A stretch of 64,000 bases of DNA from Deinococcales bacterium. GTDB lineage: Bacteria > Deinococcota > Deinococci > Deinococcales > JAAFIG01. Below are positions 33,281 to 63,509 of the stretch, one piece after another (position 1 is the stretch's first letter; the number at the start of each line of letters is the position of its first letter). The position numbers and the translations under genes were made by a program. Below the pieces are notes generated by a model. It did not search any database and was not told the DNA's origin. It saw only the letters and a list, made by a program, of their open reading frames with translations. The stretch lies in the NCBI GenBank assembly GCA_013298595.1, contig JAAFIG010000008.1, forward strand, positions 62,001-126,000, written 5' to 3'.

Positions 33281-34753
33281 GTGTTGAGTGTAGAAAAATA
33301 TATAACCAAGATAGGTAAACTTGATCAACCGATCTATGGGTATCCACAGTACGATGCCCAACAAAATATCCATGCTGATCAATTGTTAACAATAAATCGT
33401 ATTGTAGATTTGATTGCTAAAGACTTGAATCGCCCGCTTAAAATACTCGAGTTAAACTGTGCACAAGGATTTTTTTCGCTACATCTCGCGGCTAAAGGAT
33501 TTGATGTGCTTGGTATAGATTCAAGTAAAAATAATATTGAACTATGTTGTGTTTTAGCAAAAGAAAATCCAACATTAAAAGTGAAGTTTGTCAAAGGTAA
33601 AATAGAAGATATTATTAAAAGTATCAAAAATCAACATTTTGATGTGATTATTGGCATGAATACATTTGCACAACAGATTCGAGACTGGAATTTGCAAAAA
33701 GTGCAAAGTTTTATGAAAAAATTAAACCCATTAAGCGATTTTGCAATTATTGAACTATATCTGCAAAAAAATAATGAATTAATCCCAGCTGTTGAGTTAC
33801 TCGAGCCATATTCTTTTTTTTGTGAAATTCAGGATAACAGTGTAGAATCAAGTATAGTATTTTACTTGTCGACAAATTCACTACTGCTTGATAATCAATT
33901 ATGGAAATTTGATACTTGGAAACAAGAATCACATGCACTAGCTGGTAATAATCATCAAAAAAGCCGCCGTTACTATTTTAGAGATAATCGAATCATTAAA
34001 TTCTTTCGATTTGATGGAATATTAGCAAAAAACAACCAAGATGAATTATTTCGAGAATTCAATTTTTTAAGTACAAACAAAAACTATCCGTGTATTTTTC
34101 GACATCAATTTTCTCAATATTATGGTTGGATTGAAAGAGAATTAATTAATGGGGATAATCTACTAGATTTAATTTTAAGCAAAAAAGATTTTAACACGTA
34201 TAAAGTTATTTATTCCTTGCTTAAACAACTTGTTGCATTAGAAAAAAGCGGACTTTATCATCGAGATTTGCGTTTATGGAATATTATTATTAGCAAAAAC
34301 AATAATGTTCATTTGATTGACTATGGAGATATAACTAATATTAAAGCTGATGTTGTCTATCCAGAAAATATTTTCTTTTCTTTTTTTATTACTATTAATG
34401 ATCTAATTAATCGAGAAGTCCATCCAATATTACCGATTCGAGCTGCAAAAATCAGTCCACATCATCTACCTAAGCCATATTGTGATTGGCTGAGTGAAGT
34501 CTGGTATGAGCCAATGAACCAATGGACTTTTAAGTTGATCTACAAAAAATGGTTAGAAATCAATAAAAATCAGCTAAGCCGAGAGTTATTAGCTCAAGAT
34601 CAGTGGAATGCAAAAACTGAGGAGTACATCAATACGTTAAGGCGGTATCATGATCATGAAATTTCGGAGTTGAATAAACGATTTAACCAATTAAAAGATA
34701 GTTATGATGCTATACTAAAACGTGTCATAAAACTTGAGAAAACACTTGACTAA
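33281..34753 (+). CDS. WbdD-like methyltransferase/kinase with C-terminal coiled coil
   Basis: The 490-residue protein begins with a SAM methyltransferase domain (about 1-190; LELNCAQGFFSLHLAAKGFD, DVIIGMNTF). A protein-kinase-like domain follows (about 215-400) with the catalytic loop HRDLRLWNIII and the metal motif DYGD in place of DFG. A short coiled coil ends it (EYINTLRRYHDHEISELNKRF onward). This is the layout of WbdD of E. coli O9a, which caps the growing polymannan with a methyl-phosphate and so sets chain length before ABC export. The start is a GTG at 33281 with AGGAG upstream. The next gene encodes a long coiled coil. Confidence 0.78.
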   Translation: MLSVEKYITKIGKLDQPIYGYPQYDAQQNIHADQLLTINRIVDLIAKDLNRPLKILELNCAQGFFSLHLAAKGFDVLGIDSSKNNIELCCVLAKENPTLKVKFVKGKIEDIIKSIKNQHFDVIIGMNTFAQQIRDWNLQKVQSFMKKLNPLSDFAIIELYLQKNNELIPAVELLEPYSFFCEIQDNSVESSIVFYLSTNSLLLDNQLWKFDTWKQESHALAGNNHQKSRRYYFRDNRIIKFFRFDGILAKNNQDELFREFNFLSTNKNYPCIFRHQFSQYYGWIERELINGDNLLDLILSKKDFNTYKVIYSLLKQLVALEKSGLYHRDLRLWNIIISKNNNVHLIDYGDITNIKADVVYPENIFFSFFITINDLINREVHPILPIRAAKISPHHLPKPYCDWLSEVWYEPMNQWTFKLIYKKWLEINKNQLSRELLAQDQWNAKTEEYINTLRRYHDHEISELNKRFNQLKDSYDAILKRVIKLEKTLD

Positions 34754-34771
34754 CAGATAAAAGGAGTTAGA

Positions 34772-36025
34772 ATGAAAACAAGAAAACCAAGAAAAATAAA
34801 TAATATGGATTCTGCTCAGACAGCCGAAGTGAATCAAGTAAAAGCGGTTGAACTTGGACGATCTCAAGAGCACTTTGAAGTAGAAAGCAACCACCGAGAC
34901 CGAGATAAAGCCCGTATAATGCATCTTGAGCAAAAAGAATCCATGCTGAAGGTTGAGATTCAGAATTATAAAGATACACTGCAACAAATGCAACAGCAAA
35001 TGGCTGAACTACAAATACAAATTTTACAACAGCAAGAAGAGCATGCCAACGAGTTGCAAGTTATGGTTGAACAAGAACGAGTGCAAGCCCAACACATATT
35101 AGTGCAGACTCAGACTCTTGAAAATCTACAAGCTGAGTGGCAAGAGTCTATGGAAATTGAGCGATCAAAATTAGTTAATGCAGAAATTGAATGTGTGTCT
35201 ATACAAGAACAACTAAGCGATGTAAGACAAAATTTTGCAATTGAACGTACTGTATTTGCAGAAACAACAATCCAACTTGAAGAGTTACATAAACGAGAAA
35301 CTGCGTTGTTGTTAGAATTAAATGATGAAAGGCAAATTCTTCTAGATACTAAGAAATATTTGGAGAATCTTGATGCCACACTTTCCAGTAAGGATCAAAT
35401 CATTTACTTAAAAACTGAAAAGATTGACTATTTAGAATCAAAACTACGTGAAATGGAAAATCGCAAGTTCGCTCAGAATCGAGAATTGGTGTCAAAAAAT
35501 GAGATCATCTCAAGTTTGCAATTTCGAGCAGAACATTTGTCTCAGACTCTTCAGTCTCGAGATGTTCAAGCGGCTTTAATAGAGGGGGCTATACGAGAGT
35601 TGGAAGCTAAGCTATTAGATGCTCAAGAAACAATTAAAGCCACACATACTAAATTAGAGGTTGTTAATAAAGAGTTAGACTTGTGTAATTACAAATTAGC
35701 AACAGCAAATCGGCAAATAGATCTGTCCAGGCATGAAGTATTAGTTATTCATGAAAGTCGATCTTGGAGACTAGCGGCACCGTTCCGATTTTGTAGCAAT
35801 GTTATTCGGAATTTATTTGGATATATCAGAAATAACAGAGCATTTTTAACACCCAGTATTCAATCGACAGAAGTTAAACATGAACATCTTTCGGTATCTG
35901 ATCAAATTAATGTAGAAGCTACCACAAATGCCGATAGTATATCTGAGTTAATAAATACCTCATCCAAAAACATTTATTTATCGTCTAAGGCAACTAAATT
36001 GCTAAAGAGGCAAAGAATAAATTAA
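34772..36025 (+). CDS. Long coiled-coil protein, possible glycan length ruler
   Basis: Of the 417 residues, about 45-330 form one long heptad-rich coiled coil, very rich in Gln, Glu and Leu (NYKDTLQQMQQQMAELQIQ onward). The C-terminus has SRSWRLAAPFRF, a tail motif often seen at the end of glycosyltransferase chains, then a basic/hydrophobic stretch that may touch the membrane. It follows the WbdD-like gene by 18 bp with its own ribosome-binding site (GGAG). In WbdD the coiled coil acts as a molecular ruler for chain length; here a separate rod may do this job (inference). CTCGAG occurs once. Confidence 0.65.
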   Translation: MKTRKPRKINNMDSAQTAEVNQVKAVELGRSQEHFEVESNHRDRDKARIMHLEQKESMLKVEIQNYKDTLQQMQQQMAELQIQILQQQEEHANELQVMVEQERVQAQHILVQTQTLENLQAEWQESMEIERSKLVNAEIECVSIQEQLSDVRQNFAIERTVFAETTIQLEELHKRETALLLELNDERQILLDTKKYLENLDATLSSKDQIIYLKTEKIDYLESKLREMENRKFAQNRELVSKNEIISSLQFRAEHLSQTLQSRDVQAALIEGAIRELEAKLLDAQETIKATHTKLEVVNKELDLCNYKLATANRQIDLSRHEVLVIHESRSWRLAAPFRFCSNVIRNLFGYIRNNRAFLTPSIQSTEVKHEHLSVSDQINVEATTNADSISELINTSSKNIYLSSKATKLLKRQRIN

Positions 36026-36042
36026 TTTGTTGCAAGTGGTGA

Positions 36043-36079
36043 ATTTTTTGTATAAATTTCAGAAATTTATACAAAAAAT
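36043..36079. repeat. 37-bp perfect AT-rich palindrome
   Basis: Two 18-bp arms (left ATTTTTTGTATAAATTTC, 36043-36060; right 36062-36079) flank a single A. It lies 18 bp after the coiled-coil stop, at the border of the CTCGAG-free block. A-tracts and T-tracts on both sides make it a possible bidirectional terminator; an insertion or recombination scar is the alternative. A related sequence (TTTATACAAAAT) recurs near 36171. Confidence 0.75.
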
Positions 36080-36202
36080 AAATAATATTAATAAAAAACC
36101 ATATTGTTTATTTTCCCCCTAAGTTGAATTTGATGCCAAATGTAAAGTGTTATTTACGTGGATAAATTTATTTATACAAAATATCTAATGTAAAGGTGAA
36201 TT

Positions 36203-39200
36203 ATGCGAATAGTTATAGATTTAATTGCTTGTCAGACAAGTTCTAGCAGAAATAGAGGTATAGGAAGATATTCAATGTCTTTAGTCAAGAAAATGTTGGA
36301 GATTGGTGTTAATCATGAATTTTATATTATACTTGACGGTTCTTTTGAGAATACAATAGACAAAATCACTGATGAATTGTCGAATTTTCTTGATAAAAGT
36401 CGTTTTAAAATATATAAACCTTCGCCATTTTCAAGTGAAATTTCTATTAATAATTCTTTAGTTCTTGAATTTAATCAAGAACTAAGAGAGATTTTTATTA
36501 ATTCATTGAACCCAGATGCTATATTGCAAACCAGTTTATTTGAAGCCACAGCTCAATCTAGCAAAAGTATCCCAACAAGTGCTCTAAATTTTACTATTTT
36601 ATATGATCTTATTCCTTTACTTAATAAAGAACGATACCTAACAAATCCAGGAGCAATGAAATGGTATTTTGGTAAACTACAATCGCTAGTTAGAAATGAT
36701 TTTCTACTGGCAATTTCCGAATCAAGTCGTCAAGAAGCAATCGAGGCTCTTTCAGTTTCTCCAGATCGAGTGATAAATATTAGTTCCGCGATTGAACCTA
36801 CATTTCGATTGATTGACATAAGTGAGTCTGAGAAACAGATAATAATGGATAAATATGCAATTAATAGTTCCTTCATATTATATACGGGTGGTATTGACTA
36901 TAGAAAAAATATTGAAGGTTTAATTGAAGCCTATTCTTTATTAGATATAGATATACGAAAAAATCATCAACTTGTTGTGGTTTGCTCGATTCATGATACG
37001 GATCGAGCAAGGTTAATGGATTTAGCAAAAGTAAATGGACTGATGGATAGAGAAATTATCTTTACTGGATTTATAACGGATGATGACTTGTTATTTTTAT
37101 ATAACATGTGTCACTTGTTCGTTTTTCCTTCTATCCATGAAGGTTTTGGGCTACCTGCACTTGAAGCTATGGCGTGCGGAGCACCTGTTATTGTATCCAA
37201 TACAAGCAGTTTACCTGAAGTGGTAAATAATCCGATTGCGCTTTTTGATCCTGCTGAGCCACAGGAAATTGCAAAAAAGATGTGGCTCGCACTGACAGAT
37301 TCTGATTTTCGACTAGAATTATCTCAACATGGTTTAATTCAAGCCACGAAGTTTTCGTGGGGAAAATCAGCGCGAACTGCTTTAGTTGCGATTGAAGATG
37401 CTTTCTCTCAAAAAAGTTTGAATTCGATATCATCTAATTCAATGCAACAGCGTCTCAAGTTGGCTTTTGTTGCTCCTCTTCCCCCATTACGAACTGGAAT
37501 CGCAGTATACTGTACCGATTTGTTGCCTAGTTTATCAAGGCACTATGATATCGATGTGATTGTAAACCAAGACGTAGTTGATGATAGTTGGATTAGTGCA
37601 AACTTTCAGATACGTTCAGTAGATTGGTTTCGACAAAATCATAGCCAGTTTGATCGAGTGCTATACCATTTTGGTAATTCTGCATTCCACGTACACATGC
37701 CAGAGCTTTTAATAGAAATCCCAGGTGTTGTGGTAGCACATGATTTTTTCCTTAGTGGCATGATGCATTGGATGCATGCACAGGATAGTACATTAGATGA
37801 ATTTGGTAAATTGATTTTTGAGAATCATGGCTATCAAGGCATTAAAGATATTTCCCCTGCTTCTTTGCCAAATTTTAACAACAAATATCCAATGAGTAAA
37901 ACGATATTTTCAAATGCTTATGGAACTATTGCACATTCAGACTATTTGATAAATCAGGCAAAAACTTGGTTTGGGTTAAATCCACAGCACTTCAGAAAGA
38001 TTTTGCTTGCCAGAAAACAACAAATGAAGATTAGTACTGCATCTATATCCAGCCGAAATAACAAGCAGACAAGCAAAATCTTCACAGTTTGTTGTTTTGG
38101 TTTTTTGGGTGCAACTAAACTAAATCATAAACTACTTGAAGCATGGTTTTTGTCTTCCCTTGCGAGTGATCAGAACTGCCAATTAATTTTTATAGGTGAA
38201 TTACCTACAAATGACTATGGGAAGCAACTGGAGGAACTGATGGCTACTCATCCAGAGGTTCAAAATATAGTCATCACAGGATTTGTATCAGTATCTGAGT
38301 ACCAAGACTATTTAGCTAACTGTGATTGTGCTGTTCAACTGCGTACGCTTTCGCGAGGTGAAACATCAGGTGCAGTATTTGACTGCTTAGGGGCAGGTAT
38401 TCCATTGATAGTAAACGCAAATGGAACTTTTGCTGAGCTTCCTGCGAATACTACCTTAATGCTAGACGATGATTTCTCGATTCAAGATTTAGTTGATGCT
38501 CTTTACAAAATAAAGTCTGACCCGCAATTGCGCGATCAGATTTCGCAGCAGGGACAAGCATTTGTCAGAACTGAGTGTCATCCAGAAAGAATCGCTCAGG
38601 AATATGCTGATGCTATTGAACATTTTTATCAAAAAAATCCTTTTGCTCAGGGAAGATATACGCTTGAAAAACTAGGCAAAATTTTGCAAAGTGACTTTTG
38701 TTCTCCTATACAAAAGCAGGTTGCTGTTGACGTTTTTTTTGCTAACTTAGATGAGATTGAAAAATGTTATATTGATCTTACACATATTGTTGAGACTCAG
38801 AATTTACCTGATCAACAGATGCTAAGTTTACTTCTTGATACTTTTTTATTGCACGAAAATCAAGGCATTGTGTTTGTTGTATTCAAAAATGATAGATTTG
38901 TTTACGCACACGAAGCTGTATTGAAGCACCTCAACATTACAGATATAAATATAACTAATGACACGGTGTATTTTAAACCACGAGCACCAATATTATTAAT
39001 TAATCCTCACTACTATACTGCATCACAGTCTGAACTAATCACTGATAATCTACTTACATCATTAAGGGTATTTATGCTTACTTCGAGTAATTTAGATGAT
39101 GCAGTAAATATTCCTTCAAATATAGGATTGTTTGTAAAAAAAGGTGCTAGCTTCTTAGTCATGTCTAAATCAGATATGTCTAGAATAGCTATTGCATTAG

Positions 39201-39844
39201 ATTCTTTGACCGACAATCTGAAACAATCGGTTGAGTTTTTCTTTTCGCAAGAGTTGGGTCAAATATTGACCAATGCAAATTTAATTTTCGATGATTCAGG
39301 ATTCAATCCAAGTTCTTTTTTGTCAAAATTTTCTAGTGAAGTGCAACAATTCTCATTACCTATTGGTAATGAATCATCTTATTTTTTTATTCACGACTGG
39401 CAAACTGCTCAATGGAAACCAAATCAACGATTTATTTTTGCAGCGAATTCACCGCAGTTATCAAGTCAAATTGGTATAAAGACAGACTATGCCATCCAGA
39501 GCACCCAAAAATCTGGATTTGTTATATACGGACCATATATAAGTATAAGTGCTGGGCAGTTTAAAGCAAGGATTTTTGCTTCTTTTACCTCGGAAATAAA
39601 TGGAATAATTAACTTTGATGTTATCAGTTTTGGCGGTCAAACTCATAATATGTTGAGTTTTAATCAAGTAGATCTGATAGGTGCAAATATTATTGAAATA
39701 CCATTCAATATTCAGGCTGAAATACACAATCTTGAAGTACGAATGTGGATTGCTGAAACTGTTGAAGTCACTATATTCGGAATGAGTATTGAACGTGAAG
39801 ATATCAGTATCATAACTGAGAAGGGTTTGGGAATAGAGAAATGA
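36203..39844 (+). CDS. Tandem-GT4 glycosyltransferase with a C-terminal beta domain
   Basis: The protein has 1213 residues. Residues 1-405 form a GT4 enzyme ([34 protein letters not shown]). Residues about 415-850 form a second GT4 ([17 protein letters not shown], a donor site around [17 protein letters not shown]). This pairing resembles WbdA-type bifunctional mannosyltransferases that build polymannan. A region of unclear nature follows (about 855-1095). The last ~110 residues ([15 protein letters not shown] to the end) share a domain with the C-terminus of the 40940 gene product. The gene contains no CTCGAG in 3.6 kb and is AT-rich, strong signs of import. Its stop overlaps the next start (ATGA). 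Confidence 0.82.
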
Positions 39845-40875
39845 AGCATAGTTTGATTACAGGTATTTCGGGGCAAGATGGTGCTTACTTGGCACAATCG
39901 TTACTAGAGAAGGGATATAGTGTTTATGGCACATATCGCCGTACCAGTTCGGTTAATTTTTGGCGAATTCAAGAGTTGGGTATTGATAAACACCCTAATT
40001 TTCATTTGGTTGAGTATGATTTAACTGATTTAAGCTCGTCTATTCGTTTACTTGAGAGCACTCAAGCCACTGAGGTTTATAACTTAGCAGCCCAGAGCTT
40101 TGTGGGTGTTTCTTTTGATCAACCACTTGCCACTGCGCAAATTACAGGGTTAGGACCAGTGCACTTGCTTGAGGCTATTCGAATTGTCAATCCCAAAGTG
40201 CGTTTTTACCAAGCTAGTACTTCAGAGATGTTTGGCTTGGTACAAGCAATACCACAATCTGAATCGACACCATTTTACCCAAGAAGCCCATATGGTGTTG
40301 CTAAGTTATATGCACATTGGATGACTGTCAATTACCGTGAGTCATATGATATTTTCGGTTCGAGTGGAATTTTGTTTAATCATGAATCGCCTTTACGTGG
40401 ACAAGAGTTTGTCACTCGAAAAATAACTGATAGTTTTGCCAAAATGAAACTAGGGAAATTAGACACTCTTGAATTGGGCAATATGGATGCTAAACGTGAC
40501 TGGGGTTATGCTAAGGAATATGTGGATGGTATGTATAGAATGCTTCAAGCTGAACAGCCAGATACTTTTGTATTGGCAACCAACCGCACTGAGACTGTTC
40601 GTGATTTTGTGCATATGGCAGCGAAAGCGGCTGGTTTTCAACTTGAGTTCAAAGGAAGCGCTGAACAGGAAATAGCTGTAGATGTTGCCACTGGTAGAAC
40701 GCTAGTGCGGGTTAATCCAAAGTTTTATCGCCCTGCAGAAGTTGAACTACTAATTGGTGATTATGCCAAAGCCGAACAAGTACTGGGTTGGAAACCAAAC
40801 ACAACTCTTGAGCAACTGTGTCAAATGATGGTAGAAGCCGATATCAGCCGTAATCAACGTGGTTTTTCGTTTTAA
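39841..40875 (+). CDS. gmd: GDP-mannose 4,6-dehydratase (copy 2)
   Basis: The 344-residue extended SDR is close to the standard Gmd: [36 protein letters not shown] for NADP binding, ASTSEMFG, YxxxK in [33 protein letters not shown] and [11 protein letters not shown]. It converts GDP-mannose to GDP-4-keto-6-deoxymannose. It is coupled to the tandem-GT4 gene by an ATGA overlap. The gene has no CTCGAG, in contrast to copy 1 at 32234, so the two were probably acquired separately rather than by recent duplication. Confidence 0.92.
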
Positions 40876-40939
40876 AGCATATGACTGAGGAAAATATCTA
40901 GTATCAAAGTGTTGATATAGCCTAGGAATGGGAGAAGCG

Positions 40940-43327
40940 ATGTCACAGGAAGTCAAAAAATATACACCTGAATTTAAACAAAAAGCTATTAAATCGGTAC
41001 GGAAAGGCAAAAGTATCAGTGAAGTAGCTGTAGAAGTGGGTGTGTCTCGAGCAACACTTAATCGTTGGGTAAATGCGGTTTTAGAAAGAGCAACTAAGCA
41101 AGAAAGTAAATCGGATAAAATAATAGCAGATAAGCCTAATATTGCTGTATCTGGACAAAGAAATATTCGATCAGTGCCACAAGAAACCCCTCAAATTATT
41201 GGGCAAAAACCAGTCGGAGAAATTACTTCAGAATTAGTGGCAGAGCCAAAAGAAATATTTTCGGAAGTAATAGTACCAAAAGTTGGTACAACTTTGGATA
41301 TACCTTTTTTGGATTGGGTTAAAATTAATGCCGAAGCCTTAGTTAAAGAGGCTTTTATGGGACTATTTGAACGTGAAATTGATCAACCAAGTCTTGAAGT
41401 ATTTGCAGATGTTTTAAGAGAAAATCCTCAAATGAGTCAAGTATTGATGAGACTTATTAAATCTCAGGAATTTGTAGCGAAATCATTGATGAGTCTTGAA
41501 TTTCAGCAAAAAATACAATCAGTATTAGAAACCCTAGTAACCCACCTTGGTGGAGTAAAAATTGGTGTTTTTCATGAGGTAGCTTCAAACAAGTCAATCA
41601 AGCAACTTCTTATTTCTGCGATGAGTCGTGTATCTTTAGAAATAGAGGATCATTTTTTTTACCTTCATCAAAATCCAGGTGTTTACTTTCACTACAGTCA
41701 TTTTTCTAGATTATCTTCTTTGAAAAACTTGGGAATCATTTTTATTGCAGATGAAGCATGGTTGCCGTTTGCGCTTGCTATAGCAGGCTATGTGCATACT
41801 CAATATCAACTTGAAACAGTATTGGTATATGGACACTGGTCACCTGGAATTGCCGCTGCCGCTACATTATGTGCATCAGTGTTTGACGTGATTAGTTTGC
41901 AAAAATTGAAAGAACTTCCTCAAAGCTCAATGTTTTCTCCAAAAATCATTATTTCACACTCCTATGGCTGGAAAGATGAAACAACGTATTTATTGAAGAC
42001 CTTTCCGATGGCGGCTTTCTTTATTTATGCAGATGGTTTTAAGAATGAAGTAAGTATAGACTTAAACCAGCATAAAATAATAGGAGGTGCAATCTTTTTT
42101 GAGTACGAACCTCAGAATAAACCCATAAATGCACTTACAATAATTCCCGCTAAAGCAGTACTTTTAGCAAGCGATAAAATCTCTGCAATATACAAATTTC
42201 AGCCAAGTTTAAGCAATAGCAAGTTTGAAAACTATGCTGTGGTTTACTTGCGCTACTGGGGTAAAGGTGACTATAAATTTACATTTGAAGAAGTAATGCA
42301 ATGCTTCTATGATACGATCACTCGCTATATTACCCCGAGTACAGTCGTAGTTATTAAAAATGATAAACGTGCTGATCAGATGTTATTTCCAGAGATCAGG
42401 AAACTACTTGTTAATCAGAAGTATACGGTATTTACTTTTGAGGAGTACTTATTACAACATCAAGTGGATATTGCTTACCAAGCATTACCTGTTGAATATT
42501 TTCTTGCACGTGGACTGTTATGTGATGCAAAAACGCATGTTGTTTTTGATAGTAGCATTGGGTTTATCTTGGCGACACATCCTAATGTACGACGAGAGAC
42601 AAATATTGTTATTGGTGCAGTCGTGGATACTTTTAAGGAGAAAATTGAATTTGAACCTGAACTGAGTGAAAAAGAAATTGAAACACAGCTTTATACTACT
42701 CATCCTGGACTCTACACCATTAGTTATTATTCAAAACAATATACTGATGCCATTTTTGCAACAGTAGGTTTTCGTAATTGTGAGCTTATAGAAAGTAAAG
42801 GAAATTTTCTATTCTACATAGTAATAAATAGACAAACGGTAGGGAAATTATTGGAAATTGTTAATTCTGATTTGCAAACTATTGAACAGAAAAGAGATGC
42901 TGTCACTGTTTTTTTTGCTAATTTAGATTTGAATTTGATTAGCAATCAACAATTCGTTTTTCCTGCTTTTTCGGCACAAATATTGAATTTAGTAGGGAAA
43001 AAAATTGATAATTATATTCAAAGTACGCAACAATCTGGATTTGTTATGTATGGACCTTATCTTAATTTAGGTAAGGGACAATATATAGCAAGGATTTTTA
43101 CTGAATTCCCTACCAAAGTAGAAGGTCAAATTAAACTTGATGTGATTAGTGCTGGTGGTAAGATTCACAGCGCTATCACTCTAAATCAATCTGAGCTAGT
43201 TAATGAACATATCCTCGCGGTTTCATTTATTGTTGAACTAGAAGTACAAAGACTTGAGGTAAGGATGCGGATTTCAGAAACTGTTGATGTAATTATATAC
43301 GGATTGACTATTTCTCGTGAAGATTAA
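40940..43327 (+). CDS. Transposase-type HTH fused to DUF4214 and polysialyltransferase-like glycan enzyme
   Basis: The protein has 795 residues. Residues 1-50 are an IS3/IS911 OrfA-type helix-turn-helix: KYTPEFKQKAIKSVRKGKSI, SEVAVEVGVSRATLNRWV. After a linker, about 125-180 resembles DUF4214 (EAFMGLFEREIDQPSLEVFADVL). The middle (about 205-640) looks like a capsule transferase of the polysialyltransferase type, best seen in LPVEYFLARGLLCDAKTHVVFDSS. The C-terminal ~110 residues (IQSTQQSGFVMYGPY onward) match the tail of the tandem-GT4 protein. I chose the ATG at 40940 because GGAG lies 5 nt upstream. NeuB and NeuA downstream fit a sialic-acid-type donor. No IS OrfB or terminal repeats were found. 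Confidence 0.68.
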   Translation: MSQEVKKYTPEFKQKAIKSVRKGKSISEVAVEVGVSRATLNRWVNAVLERATKQESKSDKIIADKPNIAVSGQRNIRSVPQETPQIIGQKPVGEITSELVAEPKEIFSEVIVPKVGTTLDIPFLDWVKINAEALVKEAFMGLFEREIDQPSLEVFADVLRENPQMSQVLMRLIKSQEFVAKSLMSLEFQQKIQSVLETLVTHLGGVKIGVFHEVASNKSIKQLLISAMSRVSLEIEDHFFYLHQNPGVYFHYSHFSRLSSLKNLGIIFIADEAWLPFALAIAGYVHTQYQLETVLVYGHWSPGIAAAATLCASVFDVISLQKLKELPQSSMFSPKIIISHSYGWKDETTYLLKTFPMAAFFIYADGFKNEVSIDLNQHKIIGGAIFFEYEPQNKPINALTIIPAKAVLLASDKISAIYKFQPSLSNSKFENYAVVYLRYWGKGDYKFTFEEVMQCFYDTITRYITPSTVVVIKNDKRADQMLFPEIRKLLVNQKYTVFTFEEYLLQHQVDIAYQALPVEYFLARGLLCDAKTHVVFDSSIGFILATHPNVRRETNIVIGAVVDTFKEKIEFEPELSEKEIETQLYTTHPGLYTISYYSKQYTDAIFATVGFRNCELIESKGNFLFYIVINRQTVGKLLEIVNSDLQTIEQKRDAVTVFFANLDLNLISNQQFVFPAFSAQILNLVGKKIDNYIQSTQQSGFVMYGPYLNLGKGQYIARIFTEFPTKVEGQIKLDVISAGGKIHSAITLNQSELVNEHILAVSFIVELEVQRLEVRMRISETVDVIIYGLTISRED

Positions 43328-57800: not shown

Positions 57801-59385
57801 CCAATTAATCGAAGAACTCAAAACCATCAACCCATATGCCAAAGTCTGTGTCAAAGTGCCAGTCGTACCAGACATTGGTACAATCGCCGTGGGTATCACC
57901 AAAGCAGGCGCAGACGTGATTACCCTTTCAGGATTTGAAGGTGGAACAGGCGCAGCTCGAGCACATGCGCTCAAGTACGCTGGTTTCCCAGCCGAAATTG
58001 GTTTGCGTCGCACCCACCGCGCCCTTGTTATGGCAGGTATCCGCGACCGTGTTGAACTCTGGGTAGACGGTGGTATGAAAACGGCTCTCGATGTGGTCAA
58101 AATGGTTTGTTTAGGCGCAAACCGCGTTGGTTTCGGCACTATTTCGATGGCGGCTATTGGTTGCACCATCTGCCGAGGCTGCCAACTCGATACTTGTCAC
58201 GTTGGTATTGCCACCCAAGTCGAAACCTTTGAGGAAGCCGAAGAAAAAGGCATGAAGCGCTTCGTCCCACGTGAACTTGACAAAGCAGTCGAAAACCTCA
58301 CCCGTTTCTTTACAGGCATGGCATCCGAACTGCGTGCTATGGTCGCCACACTCGGCTACGAAAGACTCGAGGATATGGTCGGGCAAGTGCAGCACCTCGG
58401 GCATTTTATGGGTAAAGACAAACTTGACCTAAGTTACTTACTCGAGGAAGTCGAACCACTAGCATTACCAAAAACCGAACGAGTCATTCGTAAACCACTC
58501 AACAGCCTCACCCGTATGGTTTCGGGTTGGATGGTAGACGCAGCCGTCAGTGGCGACGAAGTTCTTACTTATCAAGATGGTCCTGTTGCCAGTGCCGACC
58601 GAGCCTTAGGTACACACCTTGCAGGTGAATTATCCAGACGCAAAAACGATAAATCCATGAAACTCGAGAAAGCCAAACTCTACTTTGATGGGGGCAGCAT
58701 TCCAGGTAACGGATTAGCCGCCTTCAACACCGCACAACTCGAGATTCTGGTCGATGGTGGCGCTCAAGATGGTGTTGGCAAAGGCAGTTTTGGTGGCAAA
58801 GTTGTCATTATGAAAGGCTTAAACGACCAAGGTGTACGCGTGGACGGCTCGGTAGGAAAAAGCTTTGGTTACGGCGCAATTGGTGGCAAATTCATCATCC
58901 AAGGCAACGCCGACAGCCGTTTTTGTATCCGACTCAGCGGCGCAGATGTTGTACTTGGTGGCGAAGTCAAAAAACCACTCGAGGATGCCTTAGGTATGTT
59001 GGCAGCTCGAGCCAATGCTAAAGGTTTTGCTTTTGAATACATGACCAACGGACGCGTTGTGGTACTCGGCGACCCAGGACCTTGGATTTGCAGCGGTATG
59101 ACAGGCGGCGTTGTTTACTTACGCTACCAACCAACAATGGGCTTAGACGACACAGCCCACGCCCGCCGCCTTGCTAAAGGAGCCAATGTTAAAGTTCACA
59201 AACTTGGCGAACGTGGCGTTGCAGACATCCGTGAAATGCTTGGCGAATACCACAAAGCCCTTGTCTCGAGCGAACAAACCGATGCTGCCAGACGAGTTGC
59301 AGAATTGCTCGTAGACCCAGCCGCGCATTTCAGAATGGTTGTACCAGCTAACCAACAAGTGGATGCCAGCGTTAGCACCGAGTAA
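54835..59385 (+). CDS. gltB: Glutamate synthase, large (alpha) chain
   Basis: The 1516-residue protein makes glutamate from glutamine and 2-oxoglutarate. A 36-residue propeptide precedes Cys37 (DACGVIGT), which becomes the N-terminal nucleophile of the class-II amidotransferase (about 37-430; RHNGEINT-type HNGEINTIERLRRE). Next are a central domain, the FMN barrel (GEGGEISDM, GQGAKPGEGGHLPGSKV) and the 3Fe-4S cysteines CTICRGCQLDTC. The GXGXG beta-helix (about 1270-1500; GSFGGKVVIMKG, GYGAIGGKFIIQGNADSRFCIRLSG) ends it. No gltD small subunit is nearby, so ferredoxin could be the donor. The ATG at 54835, not the open frame at 54781, is set by the promoter. Confidence 0.95.
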   Translation: MKPMPRKLESLHRAHERKRLRETIPNALHEGVGRDACGVIGTIRKTGLPSHGNVKRALEALTQMAHRSGEVRGEGDGCGIQTDIPKKLWKSWLTEAGIEPSVVDETGFFVAHLFIPVNVNPRDVLDHIRANTMKFGTRVILERRGQTHGSVLGPVAAISEPAFYQVAGVVNGDSEQTRVAALFSLALELENALPVHVVSLSQHTVVYKVRGAADILDRYYPELRRPDFESVCTIGHNRYSTNTMSTFEQVQPFTLLGHNGEINTIERLRRELDFLGISRTGGSDSQDLNRLLEGLMCQQGLSLFESLEMAFPPVLGEIKTFSPALQDAYMSFRQQLGPLAQGPAALVMRFGQECAFSVDALGLRPLWFGETEKEFFWSSERGVVPLGSFVNDPRPLAPGEKMLCTIRPNGVQPMPHFEAQRVLLERVHNRSAVVVGARAHVSGPLERPSNVPEFDPEVHVPSAAALAAFGWEKWDEEYVKALAEKGNEPISSLGFDGPIAALRDPKPNLAEFLKETVAVVTNPAIDREREIEQFSTRVVLGKRALPNGKYAGQICELITPVIPLDSETAAKHGTMTLPELESHLKTVRIKLELQVANNFPEPLEKALDRLRDEVIKAAHSGAELIILEDRLVYRSGHMPLDPSLCVAEANKALENLNSDGIAYRRQTSVIVSSGSIRNLHDIMMLLGLGADAVEPWLLLAAFSGADKQSADKIVSALTKGVEKVMSTMGIHELRGYGRVFAAIGLKPDLADKLGIKSFLASETAGYGMADLEKTMQDRRHRWTLGGASLERDARLNTRVYKHAAAAANGEIAATDYTGRIRALELEFPVAARNLLEVKGLAGPATEDEMRAAEEVDISAGSHRLPFVISAMSFGSQGETAFRAYPEAAKRLDMVSMNGEGGEISDMIGQYTRWRGQQVASGRFGVSSEMLNSSGFIEIKIGQGAKPGEGGHLPGSKVTAKVAKARHATQGVDLISPSNNHDLYSIEDLAQLIEELKTINPYAKVCVKVPVVPDIGTIAVGITKAGADVITLSGFEGGTGAARAHALKYAGFPAEIGLRRTHRALVMAGIRDRVELWVDGGMKTALDVVKMVCLGANRVGFGTISMAAIGCTICRGCQLDTCHVGIATQVETFEEAEEKGMKRFVPRELDKAVENLTRFFTGMASELRAMVATLGYERLEDMVGQVQHLGHFMGKDKLDLSYLLEEVEPLALPKTERVIRKPLNSLTRMVSGWMVDAAVSGDEVLTYQDGPVASADRALGTHLAGELSRRKNDKSMKLEKAKLYFDGGSIPGNGLAAFNTAQLEILVDGGAQDGVGKGSFGGKVVIMKGLNDQGVRVDGSVGKSFGYGAIGGKFIIQGNADSRFCIRLSGADVVLGGEVKKPLEDALGMLAARANAKGFAFEYMTNGRVVVLGDPGPWICSGMTGGVVYLRYQPTMGLDDTAHARRLAKGANVKVHKLGERGVADIREMLGEYHKALVSSEQTDAARRVAELLVDPAAHFRMVVPANQQVDASVSTE

Positions 59386-59400
59386 AAACTACACTCTCGA

Positions 59401-59433
59401 GAAACGCGGATGGCTTTTAGCTGTCCGCGTTTC
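59401..59433 (+). terminator. Hairpin after gltB, likely terminator
   Basis: The 10-bp stem GAAACGCGGA / TCCGCGTTTC with a 13-nt loop begins 15 nt after the gltB stop. The T-tract is short (TTAGTT), so termination may be partial. Confidence 0.65.
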
Positions 59434-59468
59434 TTAGTTCAAATACAGACAAGCCAAACAAGATGCAC

Positions 59469-59480
59469 TATAATTTGGTC
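59469..59480 (+). promoter_or_regulatory. Leaderless -10 (TATAAT, 6 nt to ATG)
   Basis: A perfect TATAAT at 59469-59474 lies 6 nt before the ATG at 59481. An in-frame ATG at 59463 would sit upstream of the -10 box and is therefore not the start. Confidence 0.7.
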
Positions 59481-59717
59481 ATGCCAACCATTGAACTTTC
59501 TTCAGATAATTTAAGTCGTCTTGAAGCAATTCGTAAAGCTCAAGGCATCAGCCAAGAAGCTGCGCTCGAGTTAGCCCTTGAAGCAGCTCAATACGCACAT
59601 TTGGATGAGGCTACCCGAAGTGCAATTCTCAATGCGCCTATTTTAACCAAAGAGTTTTTACGCCAAGATACCGATCCAAGTGCGCCACCTTATGAGGAAT
59701 CGGAGCATAAAGCGTGA
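59481..59717 (+). CDS. VapB-like antitoxin, partner of a decayed toxin
   Basis: The 78-residue protein begins MPTIELSSDNLSRLEAIRKAQ and continues GISQEAALELALEAAQYAHL, like the ribbon-helix-helix/antitoxin type in which a strand is followed by two helices. The C-terminal tail (FLRQDTDPSAPPYEESE) is acidic and flexible, as in toxin-binding regions. The stop overlaps the GTG of a PIN-toxin remnant (GTGA), the usual vapBC arrangement. With the toxin broken, it may be an orphan or may be on its way to loss. Start set by the leaderless TATAAT box. Confidence 0.68.
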   Translation: MPTIELSSDNLSRLEAIRKAQGISQEAALELALEAAQYAHLDEATRSAILNAPILTKEFLRQDTDPSAPPYEESEHKA

Positions 59718-59809
59718 CACCTCAATCCGTTGTATTGGATACCAATGTCATCAGCATAAAATGCCAACTGAAGCTGAGCAAAAAGCCGAACTCGAGTGAG
59801 AACTACTGA
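59714..59809 (+). pseudogene. Decayed VapC (PIN-domain) toxin
   Basis: GTG at 59714 opens with TPQSVVLDTNVIS, the exact PIN-domain start (LDTN with the catalytic Asp), but the frame ends after 31 residues. From 59761 another frame reads MPTEAEQKAELE then a stop, and after it ELLSG then a stop; this looks like a later piece of the same toxin. An internal deletion with frameshift explains it. The antitoxin gene immediately upstream is intact. Confidence 0.7.
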
Positions 59810-59931: not shown

Positions 59932-61155
59932 ATGATAAACTGTCCGAATTGTGATTCTAGTATAAATGACGATACACTCAACTTTTGTCCAAGTTGTGAA
60001 AGACAAGTTAGGTGTTTGAATAAAGAATGTAGAGCTATGCTAAAGCCAAACAACTCAATTTGTTTGACTTGTGGTGAAACGGTAAAAAATAGAGGGGATT
60101 CTGCTACTTTCAACACATTAACTATTGATACAACGCAAGACGGGAATTCTTTTTCGCAAAAAATTGCTGTGAAAGCCACTGATGCCTCTGTTGGGCATAT
60201 GTCAGGTATTGCAATGCAATTAATAAACGTGAATAAGGGTACTGGTACTATTCAACGACAAATAAATGCGCCTATTGGAAACCGTTCTGGTTTGCCAGCG
60301 AACACTGTCGAAGCTCAAGTAAAAAATTCTAACGACAATCAAGTAAGACAAATACATGAAGATATTGAAGCCCAAAATCAAGAACGAGTTCAAATTGATG
60401 ATACAGTTTTGATGGACGCAGTCGAAGAATTTTTTCGATTAGACGAAACAAACAACTTAGTGTTGTTGGATGCCTTCAGAAAAAGAGATTTTGGCGACGG
60501 GAAAAAAACTAAGAGTGGAAAAGCTACTAACATAGTTTTATTTTATATTTTTGCCTGTGAGCATTTTAGGATTACTGCACCTACTCGAGAGCAAATATTT
60601 AACATGCTGGAAAAAGAAAAATTATTAAATTCTAATTCAAGATTCTTTTTTGATAAAACTATAGTTTCCGAATATCTGAGTAAAGAGCAAAATGGTTATA
60701 AACTGCATTACGCAGGAAAAGAAAAATTACTTTTAATACTCAGTGAAATTTATAACCCAACTCCGCATAGCAGCATAAAAAGAGTGAACAAGTCTAAGTC
60801 ATCTCGAAAAAATACCTCAACAGCAAAAATAAATCCGACAATACAGTCTTGGATAGAAAAAACCATAGATATAGACAAACTGGGAACATCAGCAATAAAG
60901 AGTGTTTCAGATTGGGCTTTATTTGTAGTTTATTTGCTTACAAAACATCTGAACTTAGTTGAAACTATTAAGCCTGGTGATGCCTATGTATATATAACAA
61001 CTCTTAAAACAGCTACATCTTTAGATAGAAAACAATTCAGAGATTCAATCAGCAGAAATAAGAAATTATTCGATAAGAACGCAAAGGGTGAATACTTTCT
61101 TACACAAGCAGGGATTGAGAAAGCAAAAACCGATTTTTTTGAGGCATCATTGTGA
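59932..61155 (+). CDS. Double zinc-ribbon protein, first gene of an unrecognised operon
   Basis: The protein has 407 residues. Two zinc ribbons open it: Cys4, Cys7, Cys19, Cys22 and Cys28, Cys33, Cys44, Cys47. A region of about 100 residues (60-165) is low in hydrophobics and probably flexible. Two related segments follow: about 185-275 (IVLFYIFACEHFRI, ending GYKLHYAGKEKLLLIL) and about 325-405 (ALFVVYLLTKHLNLV, ending GEYFLTQAGIEKAK); both look like winged-helix units. No known family is claimed. GGAGAAG precedes the ATG, and TATAAT lies at 59863-59868. The stop overlaps the next start (GTGA). CTCGAG occurs once; the gene is AT-rich. Confidence 0.7.
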   Translation: MINCPNCDSSINDDTLNFCPSCERQVRCLNKECRAMLKPNNSICLTCGETVKNRGDSATFNTLTIDTTQDGNSFSQKIAVKATDASVGHMSGIAMQLINVNKGTGTIQRQINAPIGNRSGLPANTVEAQVKNSNDNQVRQIHEDIEAQNQERVQIDDTVLMDAVEEFFRLDETNNLVLLDAFRKRDFGDGKKTKSGKATNIVLFYIFACEHFRITAPTREQIFNMLEKEKLLNSNSRFFFDKTIVSEYLSKEQNGYKLHYAGKEKLLLILSEIYNPTPHSSIKRVNKSKSSRKNTSTAKINPTIQSWIEKTIDIDKLGTSAIKSVSDWALFVVYLLTKHLNLVETIKPGDAYVYITTLKTATSLDRKQFRDSISRNKKLFDKNAKGEYFLTQAGIEKAKTDFFEASL

Positions 61156-61928
61156 GCTTTTCTGAAGCAATACTCCTTAATTCCTTAAAAGCTCATATTC
61201 CACAAAGTATTTGTATTGAATTAATCAAGGAGTATAAACAAATTAAAAGCCAATTTTTTCTTAGAAAATGGCGACCCGCAGAATTGAGTGGTGGACGGTT
61301 TTGCGAATGTGTGCTCAGGGCTATTGAGCATTTAGATACTGGGTCTTTTACCCCTTTTGGCGTTTCGTTGAAATCAGATGTTATTATCCGAAGCGTTGAG
61401 ACTAATGTTTCGCTCTCAGATTCAATACGGTTCATTATTCCTCGTCTTGTGCGTGTTATTTTGGATTTTCGTAATAAACGAGATGTTGCACATACTGGAG
61501 GAGAAGTTTCACCAAATCAATTGGATTCGATCTTGATTTCGCATACATCAGATTGGATATTGGCGGAATTAGTTAGAAAGTTCTATCTTGTTGACTTGGT
61601 TGAAGCCAAAAAATTGATTGATTCTATTATTGAAATTAAGATTCCAATAATAGATGACATAAATGGTTTTCCAAAAATCCTTAATACGAAACTTGATGCA
61701 ACTGAAAAGACACTACTGCTTTTGTATTATAAAAGCCCTGATACAGTACTAGATACTGATTTATTCAATTGGGTTGCATACTCTAATATTGGAAACTATA
61801 GAACTCGAATCCTAAATGTTTTAGATGATAAAGCATTACTTCATAGAGCAAATCTCAAAAGCTCAATTACAAGTAAAGGTGTTTTGTTTGTCGAAACAAA
61901 AATACATATTCAGGAAATTATTTTATAA
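61152..61928 (+). CDS. HEPN-like protein with RNxxxxxH motif, second gene of the operon
   Basis: The 258-residue protein is one whose family I do not recognise. The helical N-terminal part (about 1-165) has ELSGGRFCECVLRAIEHL and then DFRNKRDVAHTGG, where Arg107-Asn108 and His114 form an R-N-x5-H motif as in HEPN ribonucleases. The C-terminal part (about 180-255) reads like a winged helix: ATEKTLLLLYYKSPDTVLDTDLFNWV, then LNVLDDKALLHR and a beta wing. Translation is coupled to the zinc-ribbon gene (GTGA overlap). The setting between two wrecked toxin-antitoxin loci and the lack of CTCGAG suggest a mobile defence or toxin system (inference). Confidence 0.68.
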   Translation: MSFSEAILLNSLKAHIPQSICIELIKEYKQIKSQFFLRKWRPAELSGGRFCECVLRAIEHLDTGSFTPFGVSLKSDVIIRSVETNVSLSDSIRFIIPRLVRVILDFRNKRDVAHTGGEVSPNQLDSILISHTSDWILAELVRKFYLVDLVEAKKLIDSIIEIKIPIIDDINGFPKILNTKLDATEKTLLLLYYKSPDTVLDTDLFNWVAYSNIGNYRTRILNVLDDKALLHRANLKSSITSKGVLFVETKIHIQEIIL

Positions 61929-62339
61929 GCTAAGATAGTGTCACAAAACCTGCTCAGGACAGTTTATTGTATTGACACTACTGTGAATGATACAGTGTAC
62001 TTTGGTCAACCTGTCGTAATTCGAGTTTTTCAAGTCTTAAATTGTTTATTTTGGTTTTTGTAAAATCTAAAGTGTATTGCCACAATTTACTTTCTCGAGT
62101 TTTGTACTATACTTTTAACCATGTCTCCGACCTTGCAATTGGATGCTGAACTCAAGGCTTGAGTACGTTTTTTGGCTGCCCAACAAGGTGTCATTTGTAT
62201 CTTCTTTCCAAGCCTCGAGACAGTTGTGAAAATCGAGATTTGCTGGTTTTTTATTTTTGGCAATTGTCTAAGAATTGACATTGCTGCTTGGCAGCTCAAT
62301 AAGCTTGCAGGTGATTTGCTACTTATGGAACAATAATGC
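61929..62339. other. Gap with a broken antitoxin gene
   Basis: There is no intact gene. A leaderless promoter-like TATACT (62108-62113) lies 7 nt before an ATG at 62121 that starts the broken antitoxin described separately. CTCGAG occurs near 62095 and 62213. The rest shows no feature I can support. Confidence 0.5.
62121..62190 (+). pseudogene. Broken antitoxin gene (in-frame stop)
   Basis: From the ATG at 62121 the frame reads MSPTLQLDAELKA, stop, VRFLAAQQG. This matches the start of a ribbon-helix-helix antitoxin with a TGA (62160-62162) where an Arg codon CGA would be expected. Homology fades after the QQG. TATACT lies 7 nt upstream of the ATG, as in functional genes here. A single C-to-T change would explain the stop. 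Confidence 0.55.
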
Positions 62340-63509
62340 GTGAATTCATCACCTTTGCTTGCTGATCTAGCTCCGACGCGTTCTCTGATTCTTGCTCGTT
62401 GGGCTGTGGCAGCCGTTTTTTTCCTCAACGGTTTTGCAATTGCTAATTGGGTGGTACGAATTCCTGCGGTCAGTCAGAAGCTCAATTTATCGCCTGGTGC
62501 TTTGGGTTTGGTGCTGCTGGCTTCGGCTGTTGGGGCTTTAATCAGTATGCCGATTGTTGGGCGTTTATGTGTTCGGTTGGGTTCTAAGCAAACAACTTTG
62601 CTGTTTAGTGTCGGTTTTGCACTAACCACCATGCTACTGACTTTAGCGCCTAGTGTATTGGTACTGGTGTTGGTGTTGTTTTTCTGGGGTGCTTTGAATG
62701 CTGGTTTGGATGTGGCTATGAACACTCAAGGCACCACGGTTGAACGTGGTTTTCAGCGTCCTGTCCTCTCGAGCTTTCACGCTTTTTGGAGTGTGGGTAG
62801 TTTGTTTGGCGCAGCGGTTGGTGGGGTGTTTGCTCGTTTTGCGGTTGCTCCGAGTTTGCATTTGATTGTTGTGGGTTGTTTGGTTTTGCTTGGTTTTTTG
62901 TTTGTCTCGAGGTTTTTAATTGCCGATGAGATATCCGATCAATCCGAGAAAACATCGGGTTTGCAGTTATCGGTTGGGTTATTGGTGCTTGGTGCGATTG
63001 CTTTTTGTGCGTTGCTGGGTGAAGGTGCAATTGCCGATTGGGGTGCGTTGTATTTGCAAAATTCGCTGGGTGCCGATGCTGGTTTAGCGGCGGCTGGTTT
63101 TGTGGCGTTTCAGTTGTCTATGGCTTCGCTGCGTTTTGCTGGTGATGCGTTGCGTTTGCGCTTAGGCGATGCTCGAGTAGTGTTGCTTAGTGGTATTGTT
63201 GCTACTTTTGGTTTAGCGTTGGCTGTTGTTCCACAATTTGTTTGGACGACGATTATTGGTTTTGGTTTTGTTGGGGCTGGTTTTGCAATTATTTTTCCAG
63301 CTGCTCTTGGTTTGGTTTCAAAGCTCGAGGCGCGTTCGAGTGGTCCTGCAATTGCTTGGGTTGGTGGCGTGGGTTACGCTGGTTTTTTGGTTGGACCGCC
63401 ACTGATTGGCTTGGTTGCAGAATTTACGACTTTGCGTTTTGGTTTGCTGGTTGTTTTGCTGGCTGGTGTAGCAATTGCGGGTTTATCGAAATTGCTTAAA
63501 ACTGCCTAA
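62340..63509 (+). CDS. MFS transporter
   Basis: The 389-residue protein has about twelve hydrophobic helices. The motif between helices 2 and 3 is present in a variant form (GRLCVRLGSKQTTLL), and FFWGALNAGLDVAMNTQGTTVER plus SFHAFWSVGSLFGAAVGG resemble the fucose/glucose-type MFS permeases and the YbjJ-like group. Substrate unknown. The start is a GTG at 62340; no later start fits before the first helix (LILARWAVAAVFFLNGFAIANW). A stray out-of-frame ATG at 62336 would read only nine codons. The gene is somewhat richer in G and T than its neighbours. Confidence 0.87.
   Translation: MNSSPLLADLAPTRSLILARWAVAAVFFLNGFAIANWVVRIPAVSQKLNLSPGALGLVLLASAVGALISMPIVGRLCVRLGSKQTTLLFSVGFALTTMLLTLAPSVLVLVLVLFFWGALNAGLDVAMNTQGTTVERGFQRPVLSSFHAFWSVGSLFGAAVGGVFARFAVAPSLHLIVVGCLVLLGFLFVSRFLIADEISDQSEKTSGLQLSVGLLVLGAIAFCALLGEGAIADWGALYLQNSLGADAGLAAAGFVAFQLSMASLRFAGDALRLRLGDARVVLLSGIVATFGLALAVVPQFVWTTIIGFGFVGAGFAIIFPAALGLVSKLEARSSGPAIAWVGGVGYAGFLVGPPLIGLVAEFTTLRFGLLVVLLAGVAIAGLSKLLKTA

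Follow-up and report, generated by a model that had tools for sequence, protein, structure and literature searches.

The window, i.e. the whole 64 kb stretch of deinococcal DNA that was analysed, carries downstream of gltB a pair of genes, named gene A and gene B here, which are encoded on the same strand and share four nucleotides, the stop codon of the former overlapping the GTG start of the latter (Table 1). In agreement with a preliminary description made from the sequence alone, which reported this overlap together with an AT-rich composition and a near-absence of CTCGAG, the GC content of gene A and gene B is 0.340 and 0.335, respectively, against 0.417 for the window, and their GC3 is 0.26 and 0.24 against 0.42 for gltB. 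A single CTCGAG is present in the pair, whereas the density of the window would predict 8.2 (Poisson P 0.0024). In the 64 kb window, this hexamer, which we take to be a HIP1-like iterated palindrome, occurs 264 times against 10.2 expected from base composition. Since CTCGAG is iterated in the window some 26-fold above the compositional expectation and nearly absent from the AT-rich pair, the pair looks acquired, as judged from this foreign composition. The hexamer is also strongly iterated in genome G001 of the same genus and in genome G002 of the same family (checked at loci L034, L035, L046 and L047), and five loci from other genomes, with 0-9 copies per 19 kb, show no such iteration. Elsewhere in the window, a second AT-rich and CTCGAG-poor stretch lies at 33800-41800, the genes of which are presumably glycosyltransferase- and GDP-mannose-dehydratase-like; this is probably an acquired surface-polysaccharide cluster. 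Searches for promoter or terminator excess and for Rfam families at the window locus returned nothing.

Regarding the insertion site, the sister genome G001 has genes after gltB for two methylases (C5 cytosine and D12 adenine), a PD-(D/E)XK transposase and a protein containing an MqsA-like HTH, and a PIN-domain protein is found at the same place in G002, which belongs to another genus of the family. As the cargo differs between G001, G002 and the window, the site downstream of gltB is a variable insertion point for restriction-modification (R-M) and toxin-antitoxin (TA) genes. The pair had been described as lying between two wrecked TA loci, and the upstream half of this statement stood, with an RHH-like ORF followed by a short stub; the latter, which we assume to resemble the start of a PIN domain, is the probable remnant of a decayed toxin. 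The downstream half did not stand, nothing identifiable as a toxin or an antitoxin being found at 61929-62340.

Table 1. Features of the gene pair and of its upstream flank, in window coordinates.
Feature	Position	Strand	Basis
End of synteny with sister genome G001	59385..59403	.	No DNA similarity beyond 59402, immediately past gltB
84-aa ORF, weak RHH-like antitoxin remnant	59463..59717	+	PF01402 (RHH_1) E 0.075, below cut-off
32-codon stub reading VVLDTNVI	59711..59806	+	ORF reading
Gene A, proposed sensor-antitoxin partner, 407 aa	59932..61155	+	ORF list
Zinc-ribbon-like segment, gene A residues 4-47	59941..60072	+	Cys spacing; PF12773 sub-threshold
First winged-helix repeat, gene A residues ~194-274	60511..60753	+	Model (pLDDT mostly 60-87); profile
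Second winged-helix repeat, gene A residues ~322-406	60895..61149	+	Model; PDB matches; profile
Gene B, proposed HEPN ribonuclease effector, 258 aa, GTG start	61152..61928	+	
4-nt overlap GTGA, gene A stop/gene B GTG start	61152..61155	+	
HEPN-like helical domain, gene B residues 10-147	61179..61592	+	2hsb match; Abi_C profile alignment
E52, invariant acidic residue of helix 2	61305..61307	+	E52 in 10/10 aligned homologues
RNKRDVAH, gene B residues 107-114	61470..61493	+	Conservation; model position
C-terminal MarR-like winged helix, gene B residues 177-258	61680..61925	+	Model; PDB matches

Fold and conserved residues of gene B

No model of Pfam, NCBIfam or PADLOC reaches its cut-off on gene A or gene B, and gene B has no gathering-level match to HEPN or defence families. 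Likewise, PADLOC 2.0 gives no match for the window pair at E 1 and none at 0.1 for ten homologues and partners, the one PHROGs match of gene B is insignificant (E 0.14), and among PDB sequences the best phmmer match has an E of 0.068, a ten-sequence profile finding no relative there. The sensitive profile and structure searches suggested in the preliminary description were carried out; they pointed to a remote link to Abi_C and gave a fold match to 2hsb, with no family at gathering level.

Structure prediction had been named as the test on which the HEPN-type reading of gene B could fail, and it gives a HEPN-like fold. The AlphaFold2 model, built from four sequences (mean pLDDT 82, pTM 0.63), has helices at 3-13, 18-36, 48-63, 75-83, 90-109 and 121-145 and a winged helix from residue 183, so that the predicted gene B protein consists of a HEPN-like bundle and, behind it, a MarR-like winged helix. 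The bundle aligns with the HEPN protein AF_0298 (2hsb) over 121 of 126 residues with an rmsd of 3.5 and a Z of 9.6, a score that helical bundles can attain through their common arrangement; this is the only whole-domain match among the 50 PDB matches listed, and the fold search of BFVD with gene B gave no whole-domain match. According to PMC3710099, 2hsb belongs to a group in which the histidine of the motif is typically absent, so the match concerns the fold and not the active site. The winged-helix tail, already recognised in the preliminary description, matches MarR-type winged helices with Z 9-10.7.

The R-N-x5-H pattern reported earlier is indeed there, in the form RNKRDVAH. As RN-x5-H arises in 285 of 20000 shuffles of gene B, and the looser R-x4-6-H in 12932 of 20000, such a motif counts only through its conservation and its position. 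In HEPN RNases, the arginine of Rx4-6H closes helix 3 and has a polar residue after it, and the histidine is part of the loop that comes next; the spacer is six residues long in some families, and helix 2 contributes an acidic residue that often belongs to an Ex3[KR] motif (PMC3710099). In the gene B model, R107 is found at the end of helix 90-109 and is followed by N108, H114 belongs to the ensuing loop (modelled with a pLDDT below 50) and E52 to helix 48-63; on this model, the R/H motif is placed as in HEPN RNases. Besides E52, the residues R110, H114, D125, W135, E139 and R142 are invariant in the ten aligned homologues, and E52 is part of an Ex3[KR] in six of them, gene B having R56. Taken as the catalytic pattern of HEPN RNases, as had been proposed, R-N-x5-H agrees in position but less so in conservation, R107 being an arginine in eight of the ten homologues and replaced by T or V in the other two. 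In an eleventh homologue, that of G166 (L012:1501-2262), a TGA takes the place of the R107 codon and interrupts the reading frame.

These residues also bear on another explanation, that is a regulator pair in which the HEPN bundle of gene B would be catalytically dead and serve dimerisation, the winged helices of both proteins controlling transcription. Such a pair could account for the loss of R107 in two of ten homologues and for winged helices being the strongest PDB matches of both models; it nonetheless appears improbable, as the invariance of R110, H114 and E52 in 10/10 homologues is more than a dimerisation domain needs and the neighbourhoods revealed no target gene conserved alongside the pair.

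Regarding known families, three homologues match Abi_C (PF14355) below threshold (E 0.11, 0.15 and 0.18); the best homologue reaches 13.1 bits against a gathering cut-off of 24 bits, and the window protein has no match. For a profile comparison, Abi_C matches were collected from 15 genomes and ORFs taken from 11 of the 15 loci, L050, L052, L059 and L063 yielding none. When the profile of the gene B family is aligned with that of Abi_C, a score of 25.9 (P 0.003) is obtained over 134 columns and RNKRDVAHTGG is set opposite the Abi_C segment RNKLGDAHGKG, with RN..H in register. With reversed columns the score is 12.9, and none of 200 column shuffles attains 25.9 (maximum 21.5); the probability given by HH-suite itself is 10 per cent. 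This alignment suggests that gene B is remotely related to the HEPN domains of Abi_C, of which it is not a member.

Gene A and its counterparts in other genomes

The eight zinc-ribbon cysteines attributed to gene A are found in four pairs, at positions 4, 7, 19, 22, 28, 33, 44 and 47, and the double zinc ribbon family DZR (PF12773) matches the protein with E 6e-4 and 20.3 bits, below its cut-off of 27.3. A variable linker separates this putative N-terminal double zinc ribbon from the two winged-helix-like segments, which were likewise borne out: both repeats (138-273 and 328-399) match, with E 0.027, a profile made from four partner proteins homologous to one another, gene A ranking first in this search, ahead of 3000 shuffled sequences and the remaining ORFs of the window, both are visible in a structure model that is poor as a whole (pLDDT 51.5), and the second matches winged helices of the PDB with Z up to 10.4. 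Pairwise matches within a 12-sequence set (E 8e-4 and 3e-3) had pointed to one repeat from each of two partner types; the type-2 assignment was dropped, since the profile test fits both repeats, weakly (E 0.027), to type-1.

In all the nine bacterial loci with upstream sequence (the window, G111, G112, G113, G166, G338, G586, G1042 and G1063), an ORF on the same strand directly precedes gene B, at gaps ranging from -67 to +167 nt, the start codon behind the value of -67 being uncertain; G317, the sequence of which starts inside gene B, was left out of this count. Given this recurrence in nine of nine loci, the pair is a conserved module. A same-strand upstream partner is absent from the homologue of the haloarchaeon Natronomonas. 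The partners of G111, G113 and G1063 and the first of G1042 (G1042a) are clearly homologous to one another, and sequence links among the partners outside this type-1 group (G586, G166, G112, G338 and G1042b) are weak. G1042 has two adjacent partner genes, against the single gene with two repeats of the window.

Five partner proteins have in common an N-terminal EIxGSEEFV-like module, recognised by eye and partly supported by pairwise matches, and it is at this place that gene A of the window has its zinc-ribbon-like segment. The zinc ribbon, presented at first as a component of the system, is not a defining trait of it, CxxC being found in 0/10 other partner proteins examined. An exchangeable N-terminal part joined to a conserved winged-helix part would correspond to a sensor-like layout. 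Upstream of the pair of G1063, a 409-aa protein is encoded (L025:1032-2258) in which a PD-(D/E)XK-like GKTDIL...AECKFW is seen by eye and which has no match in Pfam or PDB.

Distribution, genomic context and proposed role

Relatives of gene B were found in two genome contigs, i.e. a Gracilimonas MAG (L004) and a Proteobacteria MAG (L005), in one plasmid record, the haloarchaeal PL131 of Natronomonas pharaonis, and in a sole viral contig (L007), which from its gene order we take to be a P2-like prophage; phage records gave none. Profile searches of further genomes added six relatives, namely three besides the own genome in 390 genomes, one besides the seed in 398 and two besides the seed in 395, with nothing besides the seed in two other sets of 245 and 4 genomes. 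The frequency of gene B is thus of the order of a few per thousand genomes, in samples that may overlap, and in its own phylum gene B is present in this genome only (1/111).

The survey of homologue neighbourhoods, put forward in the preliminary description as a test of the defence reading against consistent location in housekeeping operons, revealed mixed settings. The G166 homologue has AbiEii within about 10 kb, as well as a restriction enzyme of BsaWI type accompanied by methylases, the G338 homologue is followed by a Mrr-type nuclease, and that of L007 belongs to prophage cargo together with DUF3800 and AAA genes. The homologues of G112, G1042 and G111 are among ordinary genes; that of G112 adjoins dnaG and a gene that we take to be rpoD, and the neighbours of G1042 are presumably efflux-type genes. 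PADLOC models matched at 1e-8 amount to 69 families in 119 neighbour ORFs (out of 152, gene A and gene B ORFs as well as some doubtful ORFs being excluded by the author) against 13 in 119 control ORFs (out of 179, chosen by the author to equal the number of neighbours and to stay within a residue limit). Methylase and AbiE models make up most of this excess, which includes generic matches; since the matches are pooled over loci, the number of contributing loci cannot be read from them, and the excess probably stems from G166 and the prophage. The RT_UG29 and RTasDnaG-like models also among the matches hinted at a retron, a hint that was discarded, their likely source being, by inference, the DnaG primase of G112. 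No RT-like motif occurs in the 119 neighbour ORFs of the ten loci, nor any RT among the ORFs of the window locus.

The defence role proposed at the outset has circumstantial evidence on its side, in the methylases and the PIN toxin at the insertion site and in the R-M, AbiE and prophage neighbours, and the ordinary surroundings of G112, G1042 and G111 on the other. Those three loci are what could be expected of a housekeeping pair for RNA processing or stress, unrelated to conflict; this seems highly improbable in view of the very sparse distribution, down to one of 111 genomes in the own phylum, the foreign composition, the stop codon that stands in place of R107 in G166 and the members residing on a prophage and a plasmid.

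The reading we prefer, to which we give an even chance, is that of a two-gene effector-controller module triggered by phage, in which a HEPN RNase toxin is restrained by a winged-helix sensor or antitoxin. Gene B would be a metal-independent RNase of HEPN type acting as a dimer, and gene A would bind gene B, and probably nucleic acid as well, keeping gene B inactive and repressing its own operon; the exchangeable N-terminal module of gene A would then be the sensor. Upon phage infection, gene A would be titrated or remodelled, releasing a HEPN RNase that would cut RNA, likely tRNA, and stop growth. On this reading, the module would probably be anti-phage.

A serious alternative, albeit on balance an unlikely one, is a plain type II TA system, with the antitoxin first and the HEPN toxin second, i.e. 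an addiction module without phage trigger. The small overlapping operon with a DNA-binding partner in first position, the decayed TA-like remnants upstream and the PIN toxin that G002 carries after gltB all speak for it, and a compact layout of type II, with a partner beside the proposed toxin gene, is encountered in 9/9 bacterial loci. Conversely, gene A, a long protein with two winged helices and an N-terminal module that can be exchanged, does not resemble a minimal antitoxin, and the company of prophage cargo and R-M genes fits defence at least equally.

Comparison with known systems

In the literature searched, which included few subscription papers and only parts of several sources (among them PMC13405049, PMC3710099, PMC13092281, PMC12839542 and PMC10853773), the pair is not described. 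In the DefensePredictor study, four validated systems have HEPN domains (PMC13092281); one of these may be the gene B family. With the HEPN domains of Abi_C, gene B has in common the helical bundle and an RN...H motif at the end of helix 3, and it differs from them by its R-N-x-R-x3-H, the invariant R110, the W135/E139/R142 residues and the additional MarR-like winged helix. HEPN/MNT (HepT/MntA) TA systems are similarly two-gene modules with a HEPN RNase-like member; their partner is a nucleotidyltransferase, whereas here it is a winged-helix protein. HEPN proteins of the EC042_2821 type bring together HEPN, wHTH and zinc ribbon in R-M settings, as listed in Table 1 of PMC3710099; there, these domains are fused with a REase, whereas HEPN plus winged helix and zinc ribbon plus two winged helices are here on separate proteins, without REase (PMC3710099).

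A further parallel in architecture comes from type IX retrons, where a HEPN RNase and a winged-helix protein are encoded in one operon. In the Kva2 system, a dimeric HEPN RNase is held by a winged-helix protein, an RT and msDNA and cleaves tRNA upon a phage trigger; this HEPN protein, of 19 kDa, has no canonical motif but H64/R122 (PMC13405049). By analogy, Kva2 shows that a winged-helix/HEPN pairing can serve as an anti-phage switch. The present pair differs from it in that RT and msDNA were not found, that R107/H114 have the classical spacing instead of the split site of Kva2, and that an extra winged helix is fused to the HEPN domain of gene B. Given the classical R/H motif and the lack of an RT nearby, the module is at most retron-effector-like and not a retron. 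That the pair descends from a relative of type IX retrons which lost, or never had, RT and msDNA is accordingly very improbable, despite the winged-helix protein around the HEPN dimer of Kva2 (PMC13405049): besides the absence of any RT-like motif in 119 ORFs of ten neighbourhoods and of an Rfam match at the window locus, the Kva2 HEPN protein of 19 kDa has neither the canonical motif nor an extra winged helix.

Beyond the effector-controller module preferred here, a broader proposal, which we regard as doubtful, is that HEPN immune switches of this kind form a class of their own. In it, the N-terminal sensor of a winged-helix protein, be it a zinc ribbon or the EIxGSEEFV-like module, would be swappable, and the protein would directly cage a HEPN-winged-helix RNase and read nucleic acid or DNA-binding proteins of phages, achieving without any RT what type IX retrons achieve with msDNA. 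Should the effector-controller reading be true, the pair would represent an uncatalogued HEPN effector module, missed by the models of PADLOC, Pfam and NCBIfam and thinly spread over distant bacteria and one haloarchaeon. It would also present the winged-helix/HEPN pairing of type IX retrons isolated from the RT, so that the restraint of a HEPN RNase by a winged-helix protein would become testable in a simple two-protein system.
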